DNA from: Phoenix dactylifera
Lineage: Eukaryota > Streptophyta > Magnoliopsida > Arecales > Arecaceae
Assembly: GCF_009389715.1 (NCBI RefSeq)
Contig: NC_052409.1
Coordinates: forward strand, 1,900,001 to 1,964,000
DNA length: 64,000 nt
Reading direction: 5' to 3'
In this document: positions 20,352-63,800 of the stretch, piece by piece
Layout: every line of letters starts with the position of its first letter
Position numbering within the stretch: the stretch's first letter is position 1
Made by a program: the position numbers and the translations under genes
The notes under the pieces: model-generated
Database searches by the model: none
What the model was told of the DNA's origin: nothing
What the model saw: only the letters and a program-made list of their open reading frames with translations

Positions 20352-20515
20352 TTTGTAATAGCCCAAGACCTCACCCAAAATGGCTAGCCAGAAGGTAATA
20401 TTTTGGGTTCCTTGATCCGTTATTAGTATCCAAGATCTACCTAGCGAATGAATCGATATGGGACTAAACTTACGCCCGCACGAGTCCTCACACCAAGTCG
20501 GGTATTTAATAGGGA
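20352..20515. repeat. Third copy of the dispersed ~150-bp repeat
   Basis: It starts GTAATAGCCCAAGACCTCAC, then carries AAAATGGCTAGCCA, TTGATCCGTTAT, CAAGATCTACCTAGCGA, GATATGGGACTAAACTTACG and CACGAGTCCTCACA in the same order as the copies at 2937-3330. It is the best preserved of the three and non-coding. Confidence 0.6.
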
Positions 20516-21037: not shown

Positions 21038-21102
21038 AAACCCTAAATCTCAAACCCTAATCGTTCCACATCTATAAATTGACCCGCCTGTCATAAACCC
21101 TA
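21038..21102 (+). promoter_or_regulatory. Fibrillarin core promoter with telo-boxes
   Basis: AAACCCTAA occurs at 21038-21046 and 21052-21060 and AAACCCTAG at 21094-21102, around a TATA-like CTATAAATT (21072-21080) about 95 bp before the ATG. AAACCCTA telo-boxes near the start site are characteristic of plant ribosome-biogenesis and ribosomal-protein genes and fit a nucleolar protein gene expressed in growing cells. Confidence 0.65.
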
Positions 21103-21170: not shown

Positions 21171-24100
21171 ATGAGACCTCCAAGAGGTAACCTTTCTCGC
21201 ATTGATTCGCCCCTTCTTTGCCAATCTTCCCTCTTCTCGTTCCCAATCTTCCATCTTCTCGAGGTTATTCTTTTTCCTCTTTAAATGCGATAAAAAAAAT
21301 CCAATCTTTGTTTTTTCCACTCTTCGAAATATATGATTCGATCTTTGATGCGATTAAAAACCATTTTTTTTTTAATATTTCGCTGGAAATTTCGATTTCG
21401 TGAAGTCTGTTCTTGCTTTATTGCTCAAATCTCGGTTATTTTGGTCTTTCATGACTGATGTTTCCTTTCTCCAATTGTCGTTCTTTTGGCCTTTTATGAC
21501 AAAAGTTCTCGTTTCTCTGCTTCAATCTTGGTTCTTTTGGCCTTCTATGACCAATTTTCCTGTTTCGTTTCTTAAATTTTTATTATCATGGCCTCCTATG
21601 AGCAAAGTTTTCCTTTTTTTTGGATCGTAAATCTTGGTTTCTCCGGTTTTTTTATTGATTTGGAGTCGTTCTTAGGTGGTGGCCGAGGTGCTGGCCCAAG
21701 AGGCCGGAGCGATGGAGGCGGAGGTAGAGGCAGGGGAAGAGGATTCGGTGGCCGTGGAGGTGACCGTGGAGGCGGCCGTGGGGGTGGCCGTGGGGGCGGC
21801 CGTGGGGGCGGTAGGGGTGGCCGTGGGGGCGGTAGGGGTGGAATGAAGGGCGGGAGCAAGGTCATCGTCCAGCCACACAGGCACGACGGTGTCTTTGTGG
21901 CCAAGGGGAAGGAAGACGCCCTCTGCACAAGGAATCTGGTCGCTGGTGATTCCGTTTATGGTGAGAAGCGCATTTCGGTTCAGGTAATTAATCTATCACA
22001 GCTCATGGGTTTTTGGTGGTTTTTCTATCATTGATGTTTCATTTGGTCAGGTTCTGTTTTCTGGGTGCAATCTTTTTCTCTCTATCTTAAATTTTATTGT
22101 GGTTGGATGGTCTTAAGTTTGTATTCTGATGTAGATGAAAGTTAGATTTGGCATCCATTATGTTAGCTTTATGATCTTTTCGACTCTCTGCAGAACGAGG
22201 AGGGAACTAAGGTCGAGTACAGGATTTGGAATCCATTCCGCTCGAAGTTGGCAGCAGCCATTATTGGTGGTGTTGACAATATATGGATGGTAATCGCTCT
22301 CTTTTCATCCCTTCGGATTACCTAGCATCTTTTGAAATGGTCATGAAATTGAAGTTTTGAGGTTGTTTTTTTGCCATGTTATTAATTATTTAGTTAGACA
22401 TGGTGAAGTCCATCTATTGCCGTTAGTTATCTTTCTTAGTGTTGGCACTTGAGCCTTTTCTTTTTCGAAGAATCTTTTCTCCTCCTTTTTCCTGCTGGGA
22501 GTCAAGAAAAGCTTCATGGTATATCTGCCTTTTCATTTATTCATTCATTTGCGAGCAGGGATTTTTTGGGAGGGGGATAGTGAATGGTTATAAATCCCTT
22601 TTCACCTGATCTAAGCTTCGCTATTTTATATACCTGTTGGTAGTGAAGAGAAGAATGGTGATATATTTCCCTTTTTTGTTTATTTATTTATTGCTTCATA
22701 CATTCATCCTCTTTTTATTTTATTTTTTTGGATGCATAAATCTGATGTCTACTTTTGACTTAACTACAAATCTGATGTTGATCAGTTATTCTGCTAGATG
22801 TGATACTTATCCTTGTTTTTCGTCATTATGTTACCATAGATTAAATGATCATAATCAGATTTATCTTTGGTTCTGAAGAAGCTTAGTTGTTATAGTTATA
22901 TTGCTTTTGATTTTATGGATTCTTATGGAACAACCTCTTTATAGATCAGTGATCAAATTATCTATGGTTCTAAATAAACTTTATACTTAAGCCTCCTGAT
23001 TGATGTGTTCTTATTAGATGACATGTTTGTATTGTTCATGTAATTTAGTAACTGCTATCTTACCTATCCATGTATGAGTTAATGTTTTGACCTATTACCC
23101 TTTGTTTCCATATTAGATACTACTAATGGCTTTCTTCTTGCTTTTGAAGTTTCTTTTTGCTGCCTATGAATTACCTTTTCTTGTTTGGTTTCCTCATTCT
23201 CCATTTGGTTTTCTGATAATAAGCTTCGCTCTGTTTGCGTGATTATATTTTTACTATTTCTGAGCCAACTCTTATATTTTTAGGGCCCTGGATCTCGAGT
23301 ACTGTATCTTGGAGCTGCGTCAGGGACCACTGTGTCTCATGTGTCTGACCTTGTTGGACCTGTAAGTTCTTTTATTGCAGTAAACATTTTGGAAAAGTGC
23401 ATTGTGATCATGTTATAATTAATTTTGAGTTTCAAGGTAATTATATGTCTTATCTTAAGCTTTTTTGCAGACAGGAGTTGTTTATGCTGTTGAATTTTCG
23501 CATAGAAGTGGTAGGGACCTTGTGAACATGGCAAAGAAGCGAACAAATGTTATTCCCATAATTGAAGATGCTAGGCATCCTGCCAGGTATCGGATGTTGG
23601 TTGGCATGGTGGATGTCATTTTTTCAGATGTTGCCCAGCCAGACCAGGTATGCATGTTTGCCTTTCCATGATTTTATTCTAAATACTCCTGCCTGGTTTC
23701 ATGTTTTTGTGCAGTGTCGTTTTATTCCCCTGATGTTGTGCCTTTGTGATTCATTTCCATGTAGTCAGTTCACCTTAGCAAGTCCGCATCTTTCATCTCT
23801 TTAATATGTGTTATTTCATGTATTCTTATTTAAGTTATATGCAAAAGATTTTGCATATATATTAATATGATCTTGGCCTTAATTTCTATTTAATTTGCTA
23901 GATCTTTTTCTTAATAAAATTAGAAAATTTACCATGATTTACTGATATGTGATGCAATGCATCATTCATTTATATCACTATTTGATATTATATCAGTATT
24001 CTATGTTTTCCTGATTGTTCCCCATATAACGGATAAAGCTATTTGCCTATTTGAATGTGGATCATGCTCTTGGAAGAAATTTCAAATAGCAGTTACAATT

Positions 24101-27100
24101 TCATCCGGGTGATTTTGAAGCATTTTCTTGATTATATATGTGAAAATTATAACTCTTTCCCCTCTCTGGAGACCCAGCATATGATGAACTTACTCGGATT
24201 CCCCTTCAGGACATCATATTGGATGATGCACATTCGAGTTTCTGATGCTTATTTGTCTCTAGTGCATTTTTTTCCTCCCTCCTTTTGAGTCTTCCTTTTT
24301 AATCTTTTTGAGCCACAACTTTTGTACATGTTTATAAAATTGGTATTTGATGTGTAATATTATCTTTAACTATCTTCCTGCTGGCGTATTTATATTTTGT
24401 TGTGCACTAGATTTTCCAGTCTTTGTTTTTAAACAACTTACCTTCAATTAATGTTTTTTCTCATTTCTTTTCTCGATGGTTAAACTCTGGTTTGATGCAG
24501 TCTTTACTAAATTTACCTTTACTTGGGTCTTTGTTCACCACTTCATTGTCTCTAAAGATATGTTTTCAGAACTGTGGAATGGTGTGCCATGGAAGATTAT
24601 CTTATATTGCTCTAATTATTTATTTCTATTAGAACTATTGCATTTAAATTTTCTGATGAATGGTTAGCAGCTCTACGTGTAGTAAGCAAAAATGTTTGCA
24701 TGAAGAAAATTTGAAATATGATAATTTACAAATATGCTTCTGAAGTTGTGAAGGAATAAGATAATCTGATCTATTGGCAGTATCATTCTTGAAGTTGCCA
24801 AAGCATCATTGTCTAATTTATTTCCTGTTGGTTTCAGAAGGGAATTGATTGCAATGTAATATTGGAATGAGTCAGAAAAGCAACATATATTTATTATTTA
24901 TCCTTCATCTTTATTTTTGGTATCCATAACTTTTGACTTTCTTGATTATTTATGTGCGTAACCCTTTTGTCGAGCGATTTATTATATTTGGTTGCTTTGG
25001 AACTAAATTGAAAAACATGCAAATGGGCTTGAACGTTTTTGTTACCTTGATTTCTCCTGTTTTTGTTTCATTTCTTTGTTTTATTGGCAACTCAGCATAA
25101 CCAAAAGATATCAATTAAGCTATAGAAGTAGTATAGTTGATAGTCTAATAACTACTACATGTCATGAGAGATTCATAATATCTGAACTGCATATAAAGCA
25201 TTTTCAAGCCTCAAAGATGTGTATTAGAAGAAGATATATGGGAATTAATGGAACAAAGAATGCAACTGAGGTTATCTAGTTAAGGATGATGGCAAATGTT
25301 AATTTTGGAGTGGCAAATTGTGATTTTGGAGGGCTACGATTTTTGAACTATGGATAAGTTTGGAGATGGAATACCTAATAACTTTGTATTTAAGTGTAGA
25401 TGGATATAACAAGTTACATGCAGCCACTTTAGTTGTGATGGGACTATGCTACTTACCAGGGGCTGATGGTGGTGAAAGAGGAGCATATGACATCTTTTAT
25501 AAAAAAATAACTGAACGAGGTAAAGCATAACATGATGATACTCTGATGATGAGTAGGGACCCATGGCTGAGGGGGTGCATATTGAATTCATTTGGATTAA
25601 CTACTTATTCAATGTGGCTAAGTACATGTTTCATTCATCATAGGTTTTTCATTTACTGTTTGTAATGCCAGAAAAAATAATATTTTTGATATTTTAAACG
25701 TTATTAAGGAAAGCAAGATAGTCAGCCTTGGGAGAGGAACTAAATTTGGTACTAGTAGACGCACATGCAGTGTGGAAAAAGAGAAGTTCAAATCATTTCC
25801 AAATTTTCCAGTGTCCTTTAATTCCATGTACTCGAAAGCTGATAAGGGTATTCTTGTGTTTGAATGTCTGTGTCGTCATTTTTGCCTTTGTGATCATCTT
25901 TTTTGGGGACTTCAAATGTCTGCTTAAATTACAAGAATACTTTTCACTGCTTTCAAGTTCTTGAAATACTGAAGGGTACTGGCATGTTTGTACACCTCTC
26001 TTTCCATCCTATGTTTGTACACCTCTCTTTCCATCCTGTCAGTAACTGTATTATAACTCTGACATGGATGAGGCCCCTTCTGTTCTTCAAAAACCCAATT
26101 TACTAGAAGAAAGGAGGCTTTGAATGGTGTTGAATATGCGGATATTTAATCTTTAAATAATCTTCAATTTCCATTTCGAAATTTTGAAGGTTGACAGAAG
26201 CCAATGACATGATCTCAACATTTTGTCTGGGGAAACATGCATCTTATAGCTGGTTGTGATTTCATCAACTGGAACTTGTTTTAGAGATACGAATGGCCTC
26301 TTACCCTTTGCAAGTGAGATGGAATGCTCCATGCTTTTGGTCAATAAGACTGAGCATTTGCATGATATAGTGGAGAATCAATTATTTGTATGCAAGCATA
26401 CATAATTATTGCTATAATGGGCAAAAGTAAACACCTGAAATATAGTTCTCCTAACTAAACATGGTATCTGCATGCACAGTATTAAAATAAATAATGAAAT
26501 AATCAAATAGTATCGAAGGGCAGTTCATTGTTTTTCCATTCTACAACTAGTGCAGTGTTTCAAGCATGTAGAAGGAACAAAGTTGCATATCTATGATTCA
26601 ATATGGTTATATATATGCATATCATATTGAGTAAATGGTGCATCAAAGCAGTGTTTATGGGATTGTTGGAAGGCCTAGCCAAGTTGCCGGTGGAATTGTG
26701 GGAAGGCTTAGCTAAGTTGTCTGAGGAGCATGGCCACTTACCATGGGCTAAGGTGGCCTGGCCTATTCTAGTATAATATTATATGAAAAAATTGTATATC
26801 ATAGTAAAGAGTAATATTCTTTATCATGCTTTTGTAATGTTATAGTGTATTACATGATTTAATGAAAAGAATATAAATAAATTATATGATAGAGTGATAT
26901 TTTGTATTATAATATTAGCTTTTAAAGTATTATATTAATATAAATAATAATATTATGATATTATTTACTAATTTTTAGTACATAAGTCAACATCATAGAA
27001 CGTATTTACTAAGTCTTAGAAGAGCAATTAATTTGCTATTAGTATTCCCAAGAACACACAATACTGGGGGTCGGTTCAAGTGCATTGTCAAACAGAACTA

Positions 27101-27724
27101 TTCTTTTGTTCCCATGTGATTAAATATGCCATCCATCATTTGCTCATGCGATTGATTTCTTTGGTGCATTTACTGTCTACTTCAATTACAAGATGCTCAT
27201 TAAATGTTTTCTTGGCTATTTCTTTCTGCAGGCAAGGATTTTAGCACTAAATGCTTCTTATTTCTTGAAGAATGGTGGCCATTTTGTGATCTCAATTAAG
27301 GTATCCTATTTATTTGGGTTTTTTTGGGGAAGGATGGCATGGATTATTTTTAGTTTTTAAAGTGTTGCAGGAACTGTTTTTGGAAGTTAAACTAGATGTG
27401 CTAACTGGGAAACAGGGGCCCTCTTATTTATCCTGCATTTTTTTTAATAATCAGGAAGAAGAAACCTGAAACTAGTTCGTGGTTAACGTTTTACCCAATA
27501 GCTTTTTTGGTCACCATCATCTGATTTTGTTCTTTTTTCAGGCAAATTGTATCGATTCCACGGTGCCTGCTGAGGCTGTATTTGCCCAAGAAGTGAAGAA
27601 ACTGCAAGCAGAGCAGTTCAAGCCTGCGGAGCAGGTTACGCTGGAGCCATTTGAGCGTGACCATGCTTGCGTTGTTGGTGGTTATCGGATGCCCAAGAAG
27701 CAGAAGGTAGCCACAGAAAGCTAG
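21171..27724 (+). CDS. FIB2: Fibrillarin, rRNA 2'-O-methyltransferase of box C/D snoRNPs
   Basis: Seven exons with GT-AG borders and continuous frame: 21171-21186, 21676-21983, 22194-22289, 23284-23361, 23471-23647, 27232-27300 and 27542-27724, giving 308 residues, the usual plant fibrillarin length. MRPPRG is followed by the Gly/Arg-rich GAR domain (about residues 6-65). The Rossmann methyltransferase domain contains the SAM-binding [15 protein letters not shown], the acidic [12 protein letters not shown] strand, [12 protein letters not shown], and [13 protein letters not shown]. Fibrillarin binds Nop56/Nop58 and the 15.5K protein in the nucleolus and methylates rRNA ribose at sites chosen by the guide RNA; plant copies have also been assigned to Mediator as MED36. 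Intron 5 (23648-27231) is unusually long and contains a box C/D snoRNA at about 24174-24251. Nothing is broken. The FIB1/FIB2 paralogue assignment is arbitrary. Confidence 0.96.
24174..24251 (+). ncRNA. Box C/D snoRNA in fibrillarin intron 5
   Basis: Box C ATGATGA (24181-24187) and box D CTGA (24242-24245) are bracketed by a terminal stem, AGCA (24176-24179) pairing with TGCT (24246-24249). Inside is a C'-like GGATGATG (about 24221-24228) and a D'-like position around 24206-24210. The segment before D' holds TCGGATTCCCCTT, complementary over 13 bases to AAGGGGAATCCGA, a stretch of plant 25S rRNA that I recall as conserved. Size (about 74 nt), boxes, stem and rRNA complementarity all agree with a C/D guide. 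Arabidopsis fibrillarin genes, as I recall, also host a C/D snoRNA in intron 5 (U60f), so position supports it. Whether it is the same snoRNA is not certain; the guide before box D gave no rRNA match from memory. Confidence 0.75.
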
Positions 27725-37295: not shown

Positions 37296-39577
37296 ATGGG
37301 TTCTCTCCCCAGTGAAGTCGTATCCACCATGAGCGTTCTGGAGGTCGAAATGACCGAAGAGTGGTTTTTCCCTCTTCAGGGGTTCCGTTTGGAACCCGCC
37401 AGGCGAAGGGATCGGATAACTGATCCTCCGGTAGGCCGGATCGGAGTGCACCAGGAGTCACTCTGGGCCGGCCTCCGATTTCCTCTTCACAGCTTCGTGA
37501 ATGAGTTGCTGACAGTATGCCGGTTGGTCCCGGCGCAACTCACTCCGAATGCTTGGAGGACAGTGATGGGTTTCCTGTCACTGTGTTTATTGCAGGGGAT
37601 TCCGACCTCTATTAACGTTTTCCGGCGACTTTTTGTCTTCAAGTCGAATCCGGAAGACGGGGAGTGGCTTTACATCGCCCTTCGGGCGGGTCGGCCACTC
37701 TTCCATGGTGCCCCTTCGTCCATTCATGGCTGGAAGGAGAAGTTCTTCTTCCTTGGCTCTGAACGGTCCTGGGGGTTTGACCCCAGGTGGGGGCCTACCC
37801 ATCTTAAGTAAGTCCATCAACAGGCCCCCCCAGCTTTCTCCGCGTGAGCAGGAGACCCTCGACACCATCCGCGGCCTTGGGGACGGGATCTTGCTGAACG
37901 GCCTCATTAGTGAGGATGCTCTGATGAACGTGGGGCTGAGCTCGGCACGTCCTCAGGGTAAGGATAATAGCAACGCCTCTTTCATTTCCTTAATTGTTCT
38001 AATGTTCTAATTTTGTTCGTCTTTGCAGACATCGCCAAGATGGTGACCAAGAGCGAGGTCCTCTACGCCCGCTATCAGAAGAGGGCAGCCGAGCTCTCGG
38101 GTGAGCCCACCGAGCCGAGGAAGAAGCAAAAGGTCTCGGCAACCTCGACTCCCTCGGCGGCGGCAGTAGCCGAGGCGGGTCCTTCCCGCCCCGCGCATCC
38201 CGAGGCGGGCCCCTCTCGTCCCGCACATCCCGAGGCGGGCCCTTCTCGCCCCGCGCGCCCCGATGCTGGTCGGGGGGACGGCGCGGATTCCGGGGGCTCG
38301 GGCTCCAGGGGAGCCTCAGGGGCGCCCCCGTGCCCGGCGCCTTTAGCGCAAGTTCCTGGTCGGCAGGATGCTTCAGTTGCCGATCAGGGGAGGAGATCCG
38401 CGGGTCCCGTGCTTGCACGGCCCGCTATAGTCGTGCGGCGGTCAGATCGGCCGCTCGTCCGACCCCAGCCCCCTAGCTCCGAACCAGGGAGCAGTCAGGG
38501 AGCTTTGGGGTTGGCTCCACCTAGGCCAGCCGACGCTGGCCTCCCGAGTTCGTCAGGCTCGGAAGAGCGGGTGCCTTTTGCACCCACTTGGTCGGTGTTC
38601 GAGGGCGATTCAGCCCTCGAAGATCCTCGAGTAGCGCGCGAAGTATTTCGGCTCGCGCTGCTCCCGGCTGACCGGGCCGCGATGCAGTCCATGAGCTACA
38701 ATGCTTTCATGGACATTACTCGCTGCAACGCCGTTCAGGTAAGTAAAATTTTCCTCCTGTGTAATCTGTATAGATTTTTTACTAGTGGCGCCTCACGTTT
38801 TTCTTTTCGTCTCTTTTATAGCATTTGCACGAGACGGAGATGCTGATGCACCTAGTCCAAGAATACCGGGAGAAGGCCAGGAGGTGCCAGCGCAGTTACG
38901 ACGAGGCCCAGGCGAGGTACCTAGCCGCCGAGGCGAAGTACCAAACCGCCGAGGCCGAACGTCAGGTGCTCCAAGGAAAAGTTGGAGCATCCGAGGAGGG
39001 AGTCCGAGCTCTGACCGCAGAGCTTGAGAAGGAGAAGGGCGCGCACGCATTGACGAGGTCCGAGCTGCGCGCCGCAGAAAGCCGCCTGGCCAAGGCCGAG
39101 CAGGCGCTGGCCGCCCGCGGGCAGGAGGTGGAGAATGCCCGCGGCCGCCACTTAGAGCTCGAGCGGGGGCTAAGGGACCTTGAGCGGAAGGCCGCCTATC
39201 ATGAAGCCCGGGAGCTCGAGGCTCGAGAGCAGGCTCAGAACGTGGTGAGGCTCTTTCGCGAATCGGCGGAGTTTCGCAACCTCCTAGAAGAGGAGGGCGT
39301 GAATGGGCTAATCCAGGGCTTCCGGGATTTCCGCAACCAACTGCGGCAGCTCCTCCCGGATTTTGATGTAAACCTGCTCCAGCCGGGAGCAGGGGTCGAA
39401 AGGCCGGCTGCGGAGGCAGAAACTCCGGGGACCGAAGCGGCCGTAGCCGTCCCCGAAGTGACCGAGGTCGCCTCCGAGGCTACTCCTATCGCTGCCAAGG
39501 CCACCGAGGGGGTCCCGGCTGCTGAGCCAACCACTCCTGGCACTGCTGAAGCCGAAGTGGTCGAGCTCGAATCTTAG
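37296..39577 (+). pseudogene. Spliced antisense ORF of the Tat retrotransposon
   Basis: It lies on the strand opposite to pol and has three exons with GT-AG introns: 37296-37957, 38029-38738 and 38822-39577. Exon 1 codes for the domain listed in Pfam as putative gypsy-type transposon (Transposase_28): note FPLHSFVNELLTVCRLVPAQ, NAWRTVMGFLSLC and SIHGWKEKFFFL. Exon 2 is Pro/Ser/Ala-rich with a tandem AGPSRPAHPE motif. Exon 3 is a long Ala/Glu/Arg coiled coil followed by an acidic, Pro/Thr-rich tail. In exon 1 the frame breaks at about 37800: the first part ends at a stop, and the conserved continuation (INRPPQLSPREQETL) is in another frame, so one indel disables it. The function of these antisense proteins is unknown; they are typical of Tat elements such as Grande and Retand. 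Confidence 0.8.
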
Positions 39578-40189: not shown

Positions 40190-42000
40190 GCGTCCTCGCG
40201 CCGAGGCGACTGAAGACGCTCCTCTGCTCGGGGTCCGTTCTTCAAGGACGTCGGCAGAGAGAAGTCCAAGAATAAAATAATGTGAAGACATTAAATAAAT
40301 GGGTACCTGGTACCAAGTGCGTCCTTGCGCCGAGGCGACCGAAGACGCTCCTCTGGTACCAAGTGCGTCCTTGCGCCGAGGCGACCGAAGACGCTCCTCT
40401 GCTCGGGGCCCGTTCCTCGAGGACGTCGGCAGAGAGAACGAGCCGAGCTCGTGGGTTGAAGTCGGTGGAGAACGAGCCGAGCTCGTTTGGTCAATGAAGA
40501 CCACGTCCCAACGTATTGGGGCATCCCGGTAACCGGGGCATCCCGACGTCTCGGGGCATCCTGACCGTAGTCAAGGTAGGCGAACGAGCCGAGCTCGTCT
40601 GGTCAGAGAGGACCGCAACTCATAGTCGGGGAGCACGAGCCGAGCTCGACGGTGGAAGCCGATGGAGAACGAGCCGAGCTCGTCTGGTCACCTAAGACCG
40701 CACCCCGACGTCTCGGGCCATTCCGGTAACCGGGGCATCCCGACGTCTCGGGGCATCCTGACCAGGGTCATCTTGACCGTGGTCAGGGTAGGCGAACGAG
40801 CCGAGCTCGTCTGGTCAGAGAGGACCGCAACTCATAGTCGGGGAGCACGAGCCGAGCTCGACGGTGGAAGCCGATGGAGAACGAGCCGAGCTCGTCTGGT
40901 CAGAGAGGACCGCAACTCATCTCGACGTCTCGAGCATCCCTTTAGCCGGGGCATCCCGACGTCTCGGGGCATCCCGACAGATCGGGGCATCCCGACGTCT
41001 CGGGGCATCCTGACCATGGTCAGGGTAGGCGAACGAGCCGAGCTCGTCTGGTCAGAGAGGACCGCAACTCATAGTCGGGGAGCACGAGCCGAGCTCGACG
41101 GTGGAAGCCGATGGAGAACGAGCCGAGCTCGTCTGGTCACTTAAGACCGCACCCCGACGTCTCGGGCCATCCCGACGGATCGGGGCATCCCGTTGTGGCA
41201 GGGCATCCCAATATATTGGGGCATCCTGACGTCTCAGGGCATCCCGATGAATCGGGGCATCCCGACATCTCGGGGCATCCTGACCGTGGTCAGGGTAGGC
41301 GAACGAGCCGAGCTCGTCTGGTCAGAGAGGACCGCAACTCATAGTCGGGGAGCACGAGCCGAGCTCGACGGTGGAAGCCGATGGAGAACGAGCCGAGCTC
41401 GTCTGGTCAGAGAGGACCGCAACTCATCTCGACGTCTCGAGCATCCCTTTAGCCGGGGCATCCCGACGTCTCGGGGCATCCCGACAGATCGGGGCATCCC
41501 GACGTCTCGGGGCATCCTGACCATGGTCAGGGTAGGCGAACGAGCCGAGCTCGTCTGGTCAGAGAGGACCGCAACTCATAGTCGGGGAGCACGAGCCGAG
41601 CTCGACGGTGGAAGCCGATGGAGAACGAGCCGAGCTCGTCTGGTCACTTAAGACCGCACCCCGACGTCTCGGGCCATCCCGACGGATCGGGGCATCCCGT
41701 TGTGGCAGGGCATCCCAATATATTGGGGCATCCTGACGTCTCAGGGCATCCCGATGAATCGGGGCATCCCGACATCTCGGGGCATCCTGACCGTGGTCAG
41801 GGTAGGCGAACGAGCCGAGCTCGTCTGGTCAGAGAGGACCGCAACTCATAGTCGGGGAGCACGAGCCGAGCTCGACGGTGGAAGCCGATGGAGAACGAGC
41901 CGAGCTCGTCTGGTCACTTAAGACCGCACCCCGACGTCTCGGGCCATCCCGACGGATCGGGGCATCCCGTTGTGGCAGGGCATCCCGACCGTGGTCAGGG
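40190..42000. repeat. Palindrome-rich tandem array between pol and antisense ORF
   Basis: From 40190 to 40430 a ~60-bp unit (GTGCGTCCT.GCGCCGAGGCGA) repeats three times. From 40430 to 42000 there are dozens of copies of CGAGCCGAGCTCG and of GGGGCATCCCGACGTCTC, organised in a higher-order unit of 507 bp: 40832-41338 and 41339-41845 are near-identical, and a third partial copy ends at 41985. Many units are inverted palindromes (CGAGCTCG, CGACGTCTCG). The frames seen across the array are by-products of the repeats. Tat elements commonly carry tandem repeats in this region. Confidence 0.9.
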
Positions 42001-42369: not shown

Positions 42370-45300
42370 TTACTGGTACCTCGCCATACGAACTCGGGCG
42401 ACCTCCCTTGTTTCCTCGATCAGGTCGAGGTTGCTTCTGAGCTGCGAAGAGTTGGAGCTGGCATCGTGGTGCTCGACTCTTGGAGAGGGAAGTCCAATCT
42501 CCAGTGGAATGACGACCTCCGTCCCATAGGTCAAGTTGAAGGGAGTCTCGCCGGTGGGGACGCGGAACGTAGTCCGGTATGCCCACAGGACATTGTATAG
42601 GTCTTCGACCCATTGCCCTTTGGATTTGTCGAGCCTGGCTTTGAGACCCTGCAAAATAGTACGATTTGTTACCTCGGTTTCTCCGTTCGTCTGAGGGTGC
42701 GCGACCGAGGTGAAGCGATGGTCGATGCCAAGCTCGGAGCAGAACTCTCTGAAATGGATGTTGTCGAACTGGCGACCGTTGTCAGAGATAAGGATGCGGG
42801 GAAGCCCGAATCTGCAAATAATGGACTTCCAGACGAAATCCCGCATCTTCTGCTCGGTGATCCGGGCAAGGGGCTCGGCTTCTACCCACTTAGTGAAGTA
42901 GTCGATGGAGACGACCAGGAACTTCCTTTGTCCGGTGGCCAGTGGAAATGGCCCGAGAATGTCAATTCCCCATTGGGCAAAAGGCCAAGGGGATCTGATA
43001 GAAGTCAAAGGAGCCGAGGGCCGGCGTTGAACATTGGTGTTCCTTTGGCACCGGTCACATCTTTGGACGAAGTCCATAGCATCCTTCTGGAGTGTCGGCC
43101 AATAATATCCTTGGCGCAGAATTTTGTGGGCCAATGCTCGCCCTCCTAGATGGTTTCCGCAGATTCCTTTGTGGACTTCGCGCATGGCGTAATCAGCCTC
43201 CGTTAGGCGGAGGCATCTGAGGAGGGGAGAGGTGAAGGACCTCCGATAGAGCTTTCCCTCGTACAGTATGTACCGGGTGGCGAGGCGCTTGATTCGGCGA
43301 GCCTCTTGTTCATCAGTGGGGAGGACTTCATCTTGCAGGTAGCTGGTGAGCTCGTCCATCCAGCTTGGCTCGAACTCGGTGCAGAGGGTCTGCTCGGGCT
43401 CGTCTGTACTGGGCTTTTGGAGATATTCCAGTACCGCCTCTTTGGGAAGCTCGCTCATGCGAGAGGACGCCAGCTTTGATAGCTGGTCGACCCTAAGATT
43501 CTCCGACCTTGCAATATGTTGAATATGAAAGGATTCCAAGGTCGAGGCGAGATCCCGTATCTTCTGAAGATACTTCTGCATGGTCGGGTCTCTGGCTTCG
43601 AAGTCGCCCGCAATTTGGTTGACGACGAGCTGAGAATCACTGAAGGCCTTCAAGTCCTTTATTCCTAGCTCTTTGGCTAGCTTGAGCCCGGCGACAAGTG
43701 CCTCATACTCCGCTATATTATTTGAAGCGGGAAACTCAAGGCGCAAGGCTTGCTCGGCGACCACCCCCTCCGGGCTGGTGAGGATGAATCCTGCTCCGCT
43801 ACCCCCCGAGTTTGAAGAGCCATCGACATGCAGAGTCCATGTCAAACTCGGGGTCTGCTCCGTGGGTGGCTCGGGCTCGGGCTCGGGCTTGGCCTCATCT
43901 GGTATAGTGCACTCGACGATAAAGTCTGCGAGCGCTTGTGCTTTGATCGCCGGTCTGGGTCGGTACTTGATGTCGAATTCTCCGAGCTCGATAGCCCATT
44001 TGGTAATCCGACCCGCACGATCTGATTTCTGTAGGATCTGCTTGACCGGCTGGTCGGTCAGCACAGCCACTGTATGAGCTTGGAAGTAGAGTCGGAGCCT
44101 CCGAGCCGAGATGACCAAAGCATAGGCAGTCTTCTCAAGCTTGGAGTATCGGGTCTCGGCGTCCCTCAAGACCCGGCTGGTATAATATACTGGCTTCTGG
44201 AGTTTGCCCTCCTCTCGGACCAGGACCGAGCTTACTGCAACAGGGGAGACAGCTAGATATAAGTAGAGGAGCTCACCCCGTTGAGGCTTCGTGAGCAGGG
44301 GAGGGGAAGCCAGTAGGCGCTTAAGCTCTTCAAAAGATTGCTGGCACTCGTCCGACCACAAGAAGTTCTTTGGCTTCTTGAGGGCTGCAAAAAATGGAAG
44401 GCAGTGCTCGGCCGAGCGGGAGATGAATCTCCCGAGGGCTGCCACTCGGCCCGTGAGCCGCTGTACCTCCTTGACCGTCCTAGGAGGCGTCATCCCTTGG
44501 AGGGCTCGGATCTTCTCTGGATTGGCCTCAATTCCTCGTTGTGTAATGATGAAGCCGAGGAATTTGCCGGAGGTGACCCCGAATGCACATTTGGCTGGAT
44601 TAAGCTTCATCCGGTACTTTCGGAGTGTGGAGAATGCTTCCCTGAGGTCGGCTATATGGTCTTGCGCCACCTTGCTTTTCACCAGCATGTCATCTATGTA
44701 GACCTCCATGTTTCGGCCTATTTGGTCTTTGAAGATCCGGCTGACCAGTCTTTGATAAGTTGCCCCGGCATTTTTTAAGCCGAATGGCATCACCTTGTAG
44801 CAGTAGGTTCCCCCGTCGGTGATGAAGGCTGTCTTCTCCTCATCTTCTGGCGCCATGCGGATCTGGTTGTATCCGGAAAAGGCGTCCATGAATGCCAGCA
44901 GCTCGTGACCCGAGGTGGAGTCCACGAGCTGGTCGATGCTGGGGAGTGGGAAGCTGTCCTTCGGGCAGGCTTTATTCAGGTCGGTGTAGTCCACGCACAT
45001 ACGCCACTTCCCGCTGGCTTTCTTGACGAGGACCACATTGGCGAGCCACTCCGGGTAGGCTATCTCCCGGATGAAGCCGGCCTTAAGGAGTTTGCTGACC
45101 TCCTCGGCTACTGCTTGCTGTCGTTCAGGGGCAGCGCCTCGCTTCTTCTGCCGCACGGGCTTACTGGTTGGCTTTACTTGGAGCCGGTAGACCATGATCT
45201 CGGGATCTATCCCCGGCATGTCTGCAGGCGACCATGCGAAAACATCCATGTTGTCTCGCAGGAAGTTGACGAGGCAACCCCTCTCGTGCTCGTCGAGGCC

Positions 45301-47559
45301 GGAGCCGACCTGCACGGTTAGCTCGGGAAAGTTCTCTCGTAAGGGAACTTGGATCAGTAACTCACCAGGCTCTACCCGCTCTTTCTGGGGGTTGACCCGT
45401 GCCTCCATAACCTCAGTTGTGGGCTGGTCAGTTGCTGGGGCAGGCACCTCGGCTGATCGTCTTGCCTCGTGGGTCGCCAGGTAGCATCGCCTTGCTACCA
45501 TTTGGTCCCCTCGAACTTCGCCGACTCCCTGGCTGGTGGGGAATCGCATAAGCAAGTGGCGAGTTGAGACCACCGCTCGGAGGGCGTTGAGGCCTGGCCT
45601 TCCGAGGATGGCATTGTAGACCGAGGGAAGGCGTATTACGAGGAAGCTCATCCCCACAGTACTTTCGCGGGGGGCGAGCCCGGCTGTGACCAAAAGGTCG
45701 ATCTCGCCCTCTACTGGGACTGAATCCCCAGTAAATCCAACTAACGGGGCATTCATCCTCCACAGCTGTTCTTTGGTCATCCCCATTTTACAATATGCAC
45801 CAAAGTACAAAACATTCGCCGAGCTTCCATTATTAACTAAGATGCGTTTTACATCGAATCTATTTATAATCATGGAGATGACCACGGCATCATCGTGGGG
45901 AGTTTCGACTCCCTCTAGGTCGTCGTCTGAAAAGGAGATGGCTTCAGAGGCGCGCAGGCGCTTTGAGGAGGTTTCTTCCTCCGAAGCTTCTCCAGCCGAG
46001 GCCCCACCTCGGATAGTGTTGATGACGCCGGCGATGGGCCTGTTGGCATTCGAGCCTTCAGGCTGTGCTGCTCCTTCGGCTGGCCGCTTCTCTTCACGCT
46101 GGCCTTGCACGAATCGATCGAGCACCCCTCGGCGGATGAGTGCTTCGATCTCATTTCGGAGCTGGTAACACTCCTCGGTATCATGTCCGTGATCCCGGTG
46201 GAAGCGGCAATACTTCCGGGGATCACGCCGGATTCTGGTGTCTGGCTTCGGAGGTGGGAGCCGGATGTGATCCCGACTCTCAATCTCCATGAGGATTTCA
46301 GCCCGAGGAGCGTTGAGGGGAGTGTATCTTTCATACCTCCTTTCGGGTGCACGGGCCTGCAGTGGGAACTTCGGGCGGAGGGGTGACCTCTGCTGTGGCG
46401 GTCCCCTCAACCGGGGTGGACTCTTTGGGCGGGGCGGATTCTTAGCTCGCCGCGGAGACGGGCTTCTGGGCTGGCCGCGCTCCTCGCGGCGTCTCTTCTT
46501 GGAGTTCTGCTCGGTTCCGCCCCGCCTAGCTGCCACGGCTTCTTCCGCCTTGGCGTATTTTCGCGCCCGAGCGAACATTTCAGTGAGGTCCGCGGGGAAA
46601 TTCTTCTCAATCGAGAAGAGGAATCTATAAGACCGGGCTCCAGTCTTCAGTGCTGACATGGCGATGGACTGGTCAAGCTCCCGGACTTCCCATGTTGCGG
46701 CGGTGAACCGATCCAAGTACTCCTTGAAGGATTCTCCCTCCTTTTGTTTAATGTCTAGGAGGGAGTCGGACGTCCGCCGCTGGGGTTGGCTGGCGGCAAA
46801 GTTGCCAGCAAATTGTCTGCCAAGCTGCTCGAAGGAAGAGATAGTACTCGGCTTCAGCCCGGTAAACCAAAGTCGGGCTGGCCCTCGGAGCGTCGCCGGA
46901 AAAGCTTTGCACATCATGGCCTCCGAGGCTCCTTGTAGGGCCATTAAGACCCGGTAATTTTTCAGGTGGTCAAGGAGATCAGCCTTGCCGTTGTAGGGCT
47001 CCACCTGGGGCATCTTGAACCGTAGCGGAACCGGTTCATCTTCAATCTCCGGGGAGAAGGGCGACTTCGTAGTAAACTCAAAGTCACCATCACGCCCCGA
47101 CTTCCTTCCGTGGAGTGCCTGGATTTGGCGCTCCAACTTCTCGACCTTCTTGTCGAGTTCATCATTCTGGAGGATTGCTGCAGCGGTTCGTTCGAGCGCA
47201 AGTTGCGCTAGAACCGACTCAGCTTCTGAAGGCTGTGGCCAGCCTCCGTGGCCCCTGGCTGGGTGCTTTCTCCAGAGGGAGGCCTGGACTTGGGAGTCCT
47301 GACCTCGAAGGGGAAGTCCGCTTGTAGGAGGCTCCGGTTGAACTGGAGCCGGAGGAGGCGGTGCCGCTGGAATGCCCCTGGGTTGCAAGCTTTGGACGGC
47401 GGTAGCCAACGCCTGCACTTGCTGCGCCAGGGCATCAAACTGCTCCGGTCGAACTTGAGGTGCTGACTCGGCCGGAGGTGGTGAGTTCCGAACGGAACGT
47501 TCTGGACTTGGTGGAGGACGTCGAGAGGCGTTGGAAGCCCCTTTGCTTCTTAGCTTCAT
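42370..47559 (-). CDS. Gag-pol polyprotein, Ty3/gypsy Tat lineage (defective)
   Basis: A single frame of 1729 codons from the ATG at 47559 (the upstream ATG at 47625 lies inside the LTR, so is not used). Order: coiled N-terminus, gag capsid (about 47030-46530), Arg/Pro-rich region, zinc-knuckle-like YCRFHRDHGHDTEEC (46215-46165), protease (about 45860-45560), reverse transcriptase with YIDDMLVKS near 44700, RNase H, a second RNase H starting LHVDGSS (about 43840-43440), and integrase with HHCC zinc finger (about 43200-43050) and catalytic Asp/Asp/Glu core (about 42985-42600, SDNGRQF). Two defects: the protease motif DxG reads NNG, with Asn in place of catalytic Asp (45832-45834), and a UAA at 42370-42372 stops the protein 80 codons before the next in-frame stop (42130-42132), whose tail still reads as integrase C-terminus. 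Confidence 0.92.
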   Translation of the reverse strand: MKLRSKGASNASRRPPPSPERSVRNSPPPAESAPQVRPEQFDALAQQVQALATAVQSLQPRGIPAAPPPPAPVQPEPPTSGLPLRGQDSQVQASLWRKHPARGHGGWPQPSEAESVLAQLALERTAAAILQNDELDKKVEKLERQIQALHGRKSGRDGDFEFTTKSPFSPEIEDEPVPLRFKMPQVEPYNGKADLLDHLKNYRVLMALQGASEAMMCKAFPATLRGPARLWFTGLKPSTISSFEQLGRQFAGNFAASQPQRRTSDSLLDIKQKEGESFKEYLDRFTAATWEVRELDQSIAMSALKTGARSYRFLFSIEKNFPADLTEMFARARKYAKAEEAVAARRGGTEQNSKKRRREERGQPRSPSPRRAKNPPRPKSPPRLRGPPQQRSPLRPKFPLQARAPERRYERYTPLNAPRAEILMEIESRDHIRLPPPKPDTRIRRDPRKYCRFHRDHGHDTEECYQLRNEIEALIRRGVLDRFVQGQREEKRPAEGAAQPEGSNANRPIAGVINTIRGGASAGEASEEETSSKRLRASEAISFSDDDLEGVETPHDDAVVISMIINRFDVKRILVNNGSSANVLYFGAYCKMGMTKEQLWRMNAPLVGFTGDSVPVEGEIDLLVTAGLAPRESTVGMSFLVIRLPSVYNAILGRPGLNALRAVVSTRHLLMRFPTSQGVGEVRGDQMVARRCYLATHEARRSAEVPAPATDQPTTEVMEARVNPQKERVEPGELLIQVPLRENFPELTVQVGSGLDEHERGCLVNFLRDNMDVFAWSPADMPGIDPEIMVYRLQVKPTSKPVRQKKRGAAPERQQAVAEEVSKLLKAGFIREIAYPEWLANVVLVKKASGKWRMCVDYTDLNKACPKDSFPLPSIDQLVDSTSGHELLAFMDAFSGYNQIRMAPEDEEKTAFITDGGTYCYKVMPFGLKNAGATYQRLVSRIFKDQIGRNMEVYIDDMLVKSKVAQDHIADLREAFSTLRKYRMKLNPAKCAFGVTSGKFLGFIITQRGIEANPEKIRALQGMTPPRTVKEVQRLTGRVAALGRFISRSAEHCLPFFAALKKPKNFLWSDECQQSFEELKRLLASPPLLTKPQRGELLYLYLAVSPVAVSSVLVREEGKLQKPVYYTSRVLRDAETRYSKLEKTAYALVISARRLRLYFQAHTVAVLTDQPVKQILQKSDRAGRITKWAIELGEFDIKYRPRPAIKAQALADFIVECTIPDEAKPEPEPEPPTEQTPSLTWTLHVDGSSNSGGSGAGFILTSPEGVVAEQALRLEFPASNNIAEYEALVAGLKLAKELGIKDLKAFSDSQLVVNQIAGDFEARDPTMQKYLQKIRDLASTLESFHIQHIARSENLRVDQLSKLASSRMSELPKEAVLEYLQKPSTDEPEQTLCTEFEPSWMDELTSYLQDEVLPTDEQEARRIKRLATRYILYEGKLYRRSFTSPLLRCLRLTEADYAMREVHKGICGNHLGGRALAHKILRQGYYWPTLQKDAMDFVQRCDRCQRNTNVQRRPSAPLTSIRSPWPFAQWGIDILGPFPLATGQRKFLVVSIDYFTKWVEAEPLARITEQKMRDFVWKSIICRFGLPRILISDNGRQFDNIHFREFCSELGIDHRFTSVAHPQTNGETEVTNRTILQGLKARLDKSKGQWVEDLYNVLWAYRTTFRVPTGETPFNLTYGTEVVIPLEIGLPSPRVEHHDASSNSSQLRSNLDLIEETREVARVRMARYQ

Positions 47560-47574
47560 GGCAGCGAACTCGGG

Positions 47575-47591
47575 CCCTTCCTCTAGCGCCA
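47575..47591 (-). other. Primer binding site
   Basis: Two bases inside the 5'LTR, the minus strand reads TGGCGCTAGAGGAAGGG. It starts with TGG, the complement of tRNA CCA, at the correct position for minus-strand priming. The tRNA species was not identified. Confidence 0.65.
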
Positions 47592-47593
47592 AC

Positions 47594-48940
47594 TGTTGCT
47601 GGAAATTGGACCCGGGGGCCGCCACGAAGCCAGGGGAAGGAGGGGCTCCGCCGCAGGGACAGTGGATGACCGTGCGCCGACTGGTGGCGTCCTCCTGGAG
47701 GGGTGCAAGTCCGCCGTAGGAGCGGTGGTCGATGGCGTGCCGGCGGGTGGCGTCCTCCTGGGGGGCGTAAGTCCTGCAAGAAAACCGGTGGCCGGGCTCC
47801 CCGGCGCCGGCCCTCCGATGCTTAAGTCAGAGGGGGCAAATATGTGGAGAGAGCAGGGAAGAGAGTCTGTGGAGAAGACAGAGAGAATATTTGGATAAGA
47901 TCAAGAGGATCAGTTTCCTCAATTGTCTGTGTTGTTTACTTCTCTCCACCCGGTCTAGGAGGGTTCTCTCCAGCTTCGGGTTTTTCCTCCTGTTTTTGGT
48001 CCTCTTTTTGGTCCTCTCCCCCTTTTCCCCTCCAGGTTTCCTTTTATAGGAGGATTTTTGTTACCTGGGAGGTGACAGGAGGTTTGTCCTGTTTTGTAAT
48101 AATTGGGCACGATTTGGCCCATTAATGGCGTGGTGGAAAATAAGGCCGAATCAGACCGGAACCAGGGAGTTGTCACGGTCGATCGGACCTGTTGGGGTGG
48201 TTGAACCGCCGGCCGTGGTAGGCCTGGGGTCCGTGGATGGTAAGTGCATTTATTACCGAGTGAACCGGCGGTCAGGGAGAGCCATACGCTTTGATGGTTC
48301 AGTGATCCGGAGATCGCCTTGAGCCGTGTTCATTAAATGACTGAGTGCATCGGAGACTCGAGGGGGTCTCATGCATAATGGCAGGTCGTGCCGAATACCT
48401 GCGGAGATCTTTTGCCTTGATGGCTTGGAGATAGCGGCAGGTTGTAGTGGAGTTGTCAGGTCCCTCAGGCTTAGAGGGTTAGGCGGAAGTTGAACATTTG
48501 GTCCAAGGCAATCGGCTCGGCAGGGGTGCCGAGCCGAGCTGGTCGCCCAATGGGGCGCCCTGTGGCGGGGTTGCTTCATAGTACTTCTGCTCGGCGCCCT
48601 TTGGGCGAGCGTCTTTACTTGCGCTCTTTGGTTGGTTTTCTGGTCGGCGCTCTTTAGGCAAGCGCTTTCTCTGGTCGGCGTTCTCTAGCCGGGCACCCTG
48701 CTGATCGGCACTCTTCGGTCGAGCGCCTTTCTGGCCGAGCATCCCTACTTGGTCATTTTGGTTGGGCGTCTCTTCTTGGCGCTCTCTCTGGTCGGTGCTC
48801 TCTAGCCGAGCACCCTGCTGGTCGGCACTCTTCGGTCGAGCGCCTTTCCGGTTGGCACTCTTTGGCCGAGCGCCTTTCTGGCCGGCGCCCGTTGGCCGAG
48901 CGCCTCCGTGACGGTATGACTTGGGGTTTTTCCCCCAACA
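47594..48940 (-). repeat. 5' LTR (right)
   Basis: 1347 bp, nearly identical to the left LTR. Most differences are transitions. The minus strand has CTATAAAA (48042-48049) as a likely promoter TATA box, and the U3 part (about 48560-48920) carries the same ~22-25-bp degenerate repeats. Confidence 0.95.
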
Positions 48941-60833: not shown

Positions 60834-63800
60834 ATGGATGTTAGGTACGGTAAAACTGAACAAAATGAAGACCGGGAAGGCACCGATGAGAGGAAGCATC
60901 GGTCAAGCAAGTCACAGAAGCACAGTAGTGTAAAAGAAGCTCAGAAACGGGATAGTGGAAGGAAAAGAATCTCTGGAGATAGGAATGATGCTAGGAAAAA
61001 GTCAATCAGCTCAAGCAGTGGAGATGAAAGTGAGTATGACAGGAAAAGAGAATCACATACCAAAACTCCAAGAAAGAATCCGGATGAGAGAAGTGAAAAG
61101 AGATCGAGTGAAGGGTATTGGGAAATAGAATCAGAGAGGAGAAGCAGGTATGAAGAGAATGAGAGGCATTCTTCTAGGAAATCAATCATGAAACCTTCTG
61201 AAAGTAGTTTTGTGGAGGAATCTGATTCAAAAGGTGGGAAAGCTGCTGACCATAGTAAGCATGGGTTTGCTAGGGATCGAAAGCAGGATCATGGAAATGA
61301 ATTAAGTGACTCCAAATGTAAGGTTGTGGATTCTAGTGCTGATAAGGGTTTCAGGTCCAGTACCAGGGAAGAGAAAAGAGAAGATAGAGAAACTTATAGA
61401 AGTAGGGGAAGATTAATTGGTCAAGATGAAGATAATATGTCAGTCAGTGCACCTTATGAAGCTAGGCCAGATGTACATGAAGATGATAACTGGAGAAGGG
61501 TGTTCGAAAGATCAGCTGAGGTGGCAGGAAATGAGAATTCCCGCAAGTATAGCATCAGCGAACCACATGAGCAGAAATCTGAGAAATATAGACAACAACA
61601 AGACTCAGCATATGGCAGTCATGATGAAGTTCAAAGCCAGGAAGGGTCTGTTACTAGGGATGGAGAGATGAGAGAGAGAATTGGGAGGGAAGTTAGATAT
61701 ACCAAAAGGTCACGAACACCTGAGAGAAGTGGAAGGCGTCGTAGGGAGCAGGATGACCATAACCGAGGCTATTCAGAATCTGACGATGAAAGAAATATTG
61801 GGCTTAAGGGTAGAGAATGGGAAAGAGAAGGGTACAAGGATGATAGGCCTTCCAAGGGAAAAGATAGGAGCTGGAATGACGAAAATGGGGATTGGGAAGC
61901 TTCAAAAGACCACTGGAAAGGAAATCAGACTAGGCAAGATTCCAAAGATAGGGAGAGTGAATCTGGTCATGTCAAGGAGTGGGATTTGCAATGGCGTGAG
62001 CAAGAAATGGTGGACAGTGAGAATCTTCACAGCAAACCTGGCTATAGAAAAGCTGCTAGAATCAGGCTGGATGGTGTAAAAGCGTCATCAGCCTCTAGGA
62101 ATGCTTATGAGAGTTCTGATTCAATAGAGATCAAACCCAACAAGAATCTTGACTTTGGGAAAGAGGAGACTTCTTCCATACATTTTGGGCAGACAGCTGA
62201 ACCGGGTTCACAGCAGGATGTCACTTCAGGAGTAAATGTTGGAACAGGGGATTATCCACCTGAGAAAAAGGGTAAAATAGCATATGGCTATGGAGATGAA
62301 TTACAGGTAAGATACCAAGATCACGGTTCACCTATGGATCAAATGTCCACAAGGAATTCTCTTGATTCTCATGCCAAAGAAGGACGAGGACGGGATGATA
62401 CAAATTTTAATCGTACAGGACTGAGCCAAAGCAATGATTCACAGCATCCATTTGGGAATATTCAGGGATCAGGTTCTGTTAATAGGCCTCCACAACAGGG
62501 ACCAAAAGGGGGCAGGCCTGCAAGAGGAGGAAGGGGAAGGCTAACTGGGAGGGATGCTCAACGGGATGCAATTCCATTGTCTATGATGGGCCCTTCATTT
62601 GGTCATCTTGGCTTGCTGCCAGGACCAATGCAGTCAATTGGACCAAATATGCCGCACTTACCTGGCCCACCAATTCCCCCTGGTGTTTTCATTCCCCCAT
62701 TTCCAGGACCGCTCATTTGGCCTGGAGCTCGAGGTGTTGATATGAATATGCTAGCTGTCCCTCCCAGCCTTTCTCCAATTCATCCACCTGGGCCTGGAGG
62801 ACCTAGGTTTGCACCTAATATGGGAACTGGCCCTAATCATGGCATGTACTTCAATCAGCCAGGCCCAGGAAGAGGAGTACCCGCTAACATGTCAGGCCCT
62901 GGTCTTAATGCGATGGGACTAGGTGGCCGTGGGATGCCACAAGATAAAGCACCTAGCAGTTGGGGTCCACAAAGAAATAGTGGGCCTTCTAAAGGTCCTT
63001 CAAGGGGAGAGCAAAATGATTACTCTCAAAATTTTGTTGACACTGGTATGAGACCGCAGAATTTCATCAGAGAGCTGGAGCTCACTAGTGTGGTGGAAGA
63101 CTATCCAAAGCTGAGGGAACTAATACAGAAGAAAGATGAAATTGTTGCCAAGTCTGCTTCCCCACCCATGTACTATAAGTGTGACCTGCGTGAACATGTA
63201 CTCTCTCCCGAGTTTTTTGGCACAAAGTTCGATGTTATTCTTGTGGATCCTCCATGGGAGGAATATGTTCATCGAGCTCCTGGTGTTACTGACCACATGG
63301 AGTACTGGACATTTGAAGAGATAATGAATTTGACGATCGAGGTGTGCTTTTTTATCTTTGTGCTCATCTCTTGTGTTTATTAAGTGATATGCTTGCTCTT
63401 TATTTGATATTTCCTGTATGCATGCTTTAAGTGTCTTAATTGGCACACCTAGTAATTCTGACTGTGCTGAATTTTACTCTTGTTCCTAAGCCTTCTCTGT
63501 TCATGTTGTCAGGCAATAGCTGACACTCCTTCATTTATCTTCCTATGGGTTGGTGATGGTGTGGGACTTGAACAGGGCCGTCAGTGTTTAAAGAAGGTAT
63601 GCCACTTTAGTTCGGTATTCTCCTACTTTGTATGCTAATTAGAAGATCCAGTTTTGATCTTGTTACCAATTTGAGTAATACTATGATTGCAACACTCTTC
63701 CCAAATTTTGGTCCAATTTTTGGAAGGGGGAGAGCAATGTGGTTGACGTGATGATAACAGGCAATAGCCTATTGGAAAGTGTGACGCACTTGAGCTTTAT

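Follow-up and report, generated by a model that had tools for sequence, protein, structure and literature searches.

The question raised by this locus is whether the fibrillarin gene of date palm carries, within one of its own introns, a guide RNA of the particle whose enzyme it encodes and, if so, which guide this is and which base of the rRNA it would serve. The window (the whole 64-kb stretch of DNA analysed here) had been described in a first-pass annotation as containing a fibrillarin gene with a box C/D snoRNA inside its intron 5. Both the host and the position were corroborated. The splice model has six introns within the coding sequence, all of them GT-AG, with the frame open through 308 codons, and the element falls in the fifth. 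The deduced product comprises a glycine-arginine-rich amino end and a fibrillarin domain (Pfam Fibrillarin PF01269, E 5.9e-108), and its closest solved relatives in a PDB sequence search are chains named fibrillarin and Nop1; a Pfam match of the same product to GCD14 was below its cutoff. The features of the host gene are:

21171..27724, + strand: fibrillarin gene, coding part (308 aa plus stop; splice model, Pfam and PDB sequence matches)
21171-21186, 21676-21983, 22194-22289, 23284-23361, 23471-23647, 27232-27300 and 27542-27724, + strand: the 7 coding exons of fibrillarin
23648..27231, + strand: intron 5 (3584 bases, 33% G+C)
21038..21102, + strand: promoter region, with telo boxes AAACCCTA at 21038, 21052 and 21095 and TATAAA at 21073

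The telo boxes and the TATA element lie directly upstream of the fibrillarin start codon, and telo boxes commonly occur in the promoters of plant genes that serve ribosome biogenesis or host snoRNAs, according to passages of PMC3022908 and PMC4660826. The only site II core found between about 20300 and 21300 (as the reverse complement, AGCCCA) is at 20360, about 810 bases from the start codon. The snoRNA has the same orientation as the host gene and is preceded by 527 and followed by 2982 intron bases, an arrangement (fibrillarin host, sense-oriented intronic snoRNA) that is the one of the fibrillarin-hosted U60f. A repeat search of intron 5 turned up two inverted pairs and a single direct family, all of them weak.

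Four other regions of the window are described here for their own sake: 1) An ORF at 60834-63383 (+), for which no Pfam family was found, contains near its end the stretch DPPWEEYVHRAPG, which we take to resemble the MT-A70 m6A methyltransferase subunit MTB; its location about 33 kb from fibrillarin, another gene for an RNA methyltransferase, is probably a coincidence. 2) A 1751-aa open frame at 42370-47625 (-) looks, by eye, like a gypsy-type retrotransposon polyprotein. 3) The region 37296-37811 has a Pfam match to Transposase_28 (putative gypsy type). 4) The ORFs 40662-41144 and 41193-41651 (+) have repeated peptides in common, which points to a DNA repeat array spanning 40662-41651.

The intronic element was identified through Rfam, a search of which had been proposed in the first-pass annotation as a check on a C/D snoRNA drawn at 24174..24251. 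The search gave a match to snoR60 (RF00339) at 24175-24249 (+), with 91.4 bits and an E value of 3.4e-19, extending over the full length of the model (1-72 of 72) and scoring 51 bits over the gathering cutoff of 40 bits; it was the sole above-cutoff Rfam match in the window. The snoRNA was thereby borne out with slightly narrower bounds, and the Arabidopsis U60f, which had been named as its counterpart, belongs to this same family. Three other candidates near the locus were rejected, MIR827_2 (26.7 bits against a cutoff of 67), rhtB (20.5 bits against 55) and TtnuCD32 (20.2 bits against 100), and a tRNA scan gave 0 genes. We conclude, with a probability of roughly 96%, that 24175-24249 is the plant box C/D snoRNA snoR60 (U60f), lying in fibrillarin intron 5 and bearing a D' guide to 25S rRNA. 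Its parts are:

24175..24249, + strand: snoR60 / U60f box C/D snoRNA (full-length match to Rfam RF00339)
24176..24179, + strand: 5' arm AGCA of the terminal stem, pairing with 24246-24249 (same pairs in the Rfam alignment)
24181..24187, + strand: box C ATGATGA (exact RUGAUGA consensus)
24194..24206, + strand: D' guide TCGGATTCCCCTT, antisense to LSU rRNA AAGGGGAATCCGA (13 Watson-Crick pairs)
24207..24210, + strand: box D' CAGG, degenerate, placed here as the bases next to the guide from which the D'+5 rule leads to a G
24223..24229, + strand: box C' ATGATGC (6/7 to the box C consensus RTGATGA)
24230..24241, + strand: segment before box D ACATTCGAGTTT, lacking a convincing rRNA target
24242..24245, + strand: box D CTGA (exact consensus)
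24246..24249, + strand: 3' arm TGCT of the terminal stem, pairing with 24176-24179 (4 bp)

Box C, box D, the 4-bp terminal stem and the C'-like box, all named in the earlier description, were found both on reading the sequence and by script. The element thus has the marks of the box C/D class, namely a box C (RUGAUGA), a box D (CUGA) and a terminal stem, together with internal C' and D' boxes. When both strands of the window were scanned for this architecture (stem, RTGATGA, 30-99 nt, CTGA, stem), one site was obtained, which was the 24175-24249 element. Sixty simulated windows (first-order Markov) yielded a mean of 0.17 such sites per 64 kb, with 10 of the 60 having one, and the boxes and stem taken alone are therefore suggestive. 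This frequency would allow for a C/D-like stretch arising in the intron by chance, as would the fold of the bare 75-nt RNA, which is not more stable than that of shuffled versions (z -0.95, with 31 of 200 shuffles matching it). The identity of the snoRNA is nevertheless settled by the E value of the covariance-model match, because of which a chance match is rejected, and the 13-base match of the guide to LSU rRNA (see below) also argues against it; we give a chance origin next to no probability.

The alignment with RF00339 contains a single insertion, consisting of 3 bases between D' and C' of the date palm copy. Together with the degenerate D' box, this insertion could be taken as a sign that the intron holds a decayed, silent relic of snoR60, the guide being supplied by another locus. 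In monocot genomes the number of fibrillarin genes ranges from 1 to 4, with a mean of 1.8 (in the portion consulted of PMC7608942), so that the active snoRNA could be that of another copy. Decay is opposed, however, by the state of the element, in which box C, box D, the terminal stem and all 13 nt of the guide are preserved within an A+T-rich intron of 3.6 kb, and by a score so far over the gathering cutoff. Furthermore, the D' box of the RF00339 consensus is likewise degenerate, with the same UUCAGG around D'. A relic is extremely unlikely on these grounds.

The rRNA in which partners of the guides were sought was taken from eukaryotic rDNA contigs in other collections, which were found by short conserved patterns. 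Two such patterns led to four contigs, all of which match eukaryotic LSU rRNA, and two other LSU pattern scans gave no matches. Among the four, L003 and L004 are filed as bacterial MAG contigs and L001 and L002 as viral; since L003 and L004 match SSU and 5.8S in addition to LSU, they are probably mis-binned eukaryotic rDNA. The scan covered the LSU of both L003 and L004, together with 5.8S of L003 and SSU of L004.

Watson-Crick pairing of the snoRNA was longest, at 13 bases, between 24194-24206 and AAGGGGAATCCGA of the L003 LSU. Of 2000 dinucleotide shuffles, 5 attained a run of 13 against 4381 bases of rRNA (partial LSU and 5.8S of L003, partial SSU of L004), and the energy of the duplex between guide and LSU is -24.0 kcal/mol. 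In the eukaryotic LSU consensus of Rfam the target site has the sequence ACaAGgGGAAUCcGACUG, which agrees with the pairing of the guide. The LSU sequences of L004 and L001 are altered within the target stretch, and that of L004 offered no Watson-Crick run of at least nine with the snoRNA. The perfect pairing with eukaryotic LSU, as represented by L003 and the Rfam consensus, shows that the 13-base match to LSU rRNA before D', noted in the first-pass annotation, is real. What is established for this locus is thus that its RNA belongs to the snoR60 family, which gene and intron hold it, and that it is complementary to LSU rRNA of eukaryotes.

The guide is complementary to LSU around AAGGGGAAUCCGA, and C24202, the fifth base before D', faces the third G of the target. 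The site table of PMC8053127, as far as it was seen, assigns 25S G2125 to U60 and A2127 to SnoR12. Since an A stands two bases after the third G in AAGGGGAA, just as A2127 stands to G2125, the third G is consistent with Arabidopsis 25S G2125, the number being that of PMC8053127 and the site being placed on the rRNA of the eukaryotic contigs and on the Rfam consensus. In a table of PMC6461891, which uses another numbering, LSU-G2114/U60.1F is set against the predicted nucleomorph site of GtNM-R10, and in the part of this table that was available the site apparently has no counterpart in human.

The segment before box D had been left without an assigned target in the first-pass annotation, and our scan of L003 and L004 rRNA likewise gave no convincing partner. 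Its longest Watson-Crick match to LSU was 10, in L003 only of the two LSU sequences scanned. This candidate (GAAACTCGAA, at about 2880) was rejected, as it occurs in one of two LSUs and includes a base of box D, and as the eukaryotic LSU consensus differs there, reading GAAAAuccga. With G-U pairs allowed, runs of 12 (L003) and 15 (L004) were obtained, both extending into box D; these were rejected as targets, being at unrelated places in L003 and L004.

Expression and processing of snoR60 and methylation of its target in date palm would be expected by analogy with Arabidopsis. The snoRNA would be i) transcribed as part of the fibrillarin pre-mRNA, under a single promoter, ii) excised from its intron, with trimming at the terminal stem to a length of about 75 nt, and iii) packed with 15.5K/Snu13, Nop56, Nop58 and fibrillarin, and iv) its D' guide would then pair with 25S rRNA at AAGGGGAAUCCGA, placing the third G for 2'-O-methylation. 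As to excision, most vertebrate intronic C/D snoRNAs, though not all, keep a fixed spacing upstream from the 3' splice site, as described in a part of PMC8162545; unlike this usual placement, the date palm snoRNA is 2982 bases from its 3' splice site, but plants need not obey the vertebrate spacing. The sequences flanking the snoRNA contain a possible external stem:

24166..24173, + strand: 5' arm CTGGAGAC of the possible external stem (pairs with 24255-24262 at 8 positions, including a single G-U)
24255..24262, + strand: 3' arm GTCTCTAG of the possible external stem, pairing with 24166-24173

A stem of this length was reached in 6 of 2000 composition shuffles, and the 99-base fold that includes it has a z of -2.20, with 4 of 200 shuffles as stable. 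In a positional control within intron 5, an equal or longer run was given by 348 of 3467 equally spaced flank pairs; because it failed this control, the external stem was downgraded to a lead. As a lead, it could bring the ends of the snoRNA together far from the 3' splice site. A splicing-independent route requiring an extended external stem is described for U74 in the part seen of PMC12205218.

Since a guide of the particle lies within the gene for the particle's own enzyme, here as in Arabidopsis, the two might form a feedback pair, in which fibrillarin loading on the nascent intronic snoRNA alters the splicing of its own pre-mRNA. It is this arrangement that suggests the idea, with which the possible external stem is also compatible in that it would suit excision before splicing. 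However, that stem fared poorly in the positional control, none of the features tested points to feedback, and plain co-expression suffices, as ribosome-biogenesis genes are common snoRNA hosts in plants (passages of PMC3022908 and PMC4660826). Such feedback is very unlikely in our judgement. It is also quite unlikely that flowering plants as a whole have retained snoR60 in fibrillarin for a regulatory reason, with assembly of the particle competing with or timing the splicing of its own host and the external stem allowing splicing-independent excision from a very long intron. The reading of the locus as a snoR60 guide carried in fibrillarin intron 5 is the one compared below with known systems.

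In Arabidopsis, one intron each of FIB1 and FIB2 harbours U60.1F and U60.2F (PMC8053127), and the finding of U60.1f and U60.2f in the two fibrillarin genes is credited to Barneche et al. 2000 in the passages seen of PMC8053127 and PMC8351944. According to the same portion of PMC8053127, U60.1F is not expressed in fib1-1 and methylation of 25S G2125 falls, whereas in fib2-1 U60.2F is kept and the G2125 site is unaltered. Methylation of rRNA is lowered generally in both mutants, more so in fib1-1 (PMC8053127), and because of this general effect the drop at G2125 is not specific by itself; the contrast between fib1-1 and fib2-1, as described there, is a better argument that U60 targets G2125.

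The date palm snoRNA resembles the Arabidopsis U60.1f/U60.2f (RF00339) in belonging to the same family, in lying in a fibrillarin intron, in having the family-consensus D' guide and in having a target consistent with G2125. The Arabidopsis copies presumably also lie in the fifth fibrillarin intron. From the RF00339 consensus the date palm copy differs by the three extra bases between D' and C', and its host intron measures 3.6 kb. The vertebrate U60 (SNORD60), which is likewise a box C/D guide and bears the same number, is a separate RNA directed at another 28S target. U60.1f and U60.2f are called plant-specific in the part seen of PMC8351944. A literature match for a fifth intron (PMC4140647) was discarded, as it concerns another gene.

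Rice intronic snoRNAs and snoRNA clusters, in ribosomal-protein and other genes, are likewise nested in ribosome-biogenesis hosts with telo-box promoters, going by the excerpts of PMC3022908; they differ in having other hosts and in often forming clusters, whereas the date palm locus contains a single snoRNA. In the literature searched, in so far as its text was available, no statement was found on a fibrillarin-intron snoRNA in rice or other monocots; since the rice snoRNA survey was outside the scope of that search, this silence is not evidence that the monocot linkage is unpublished. The words U60 and snoR60 are absent from the main text of a plant snoRNA phylogeny (PMC5122169) in the form available, and the word snoR60 occurs in the available text of a paper on cotton grafting (PMC11222342) and of one on potato virus Y (PMC5513076).

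The family, its target and its fibrillarin host are thus known already from Arabidopsis, in which the biology has been described even to the drop in target methylation that accompanies a fib1 mutation (PMC8053127, in part), and the date palm locus is one more plant example. It extends a known case in which a single transcript would yield both the methyltransferase and a guide for it, and placing it on the plant phylogeny could date the linkage between fibrillarin and snoR60.
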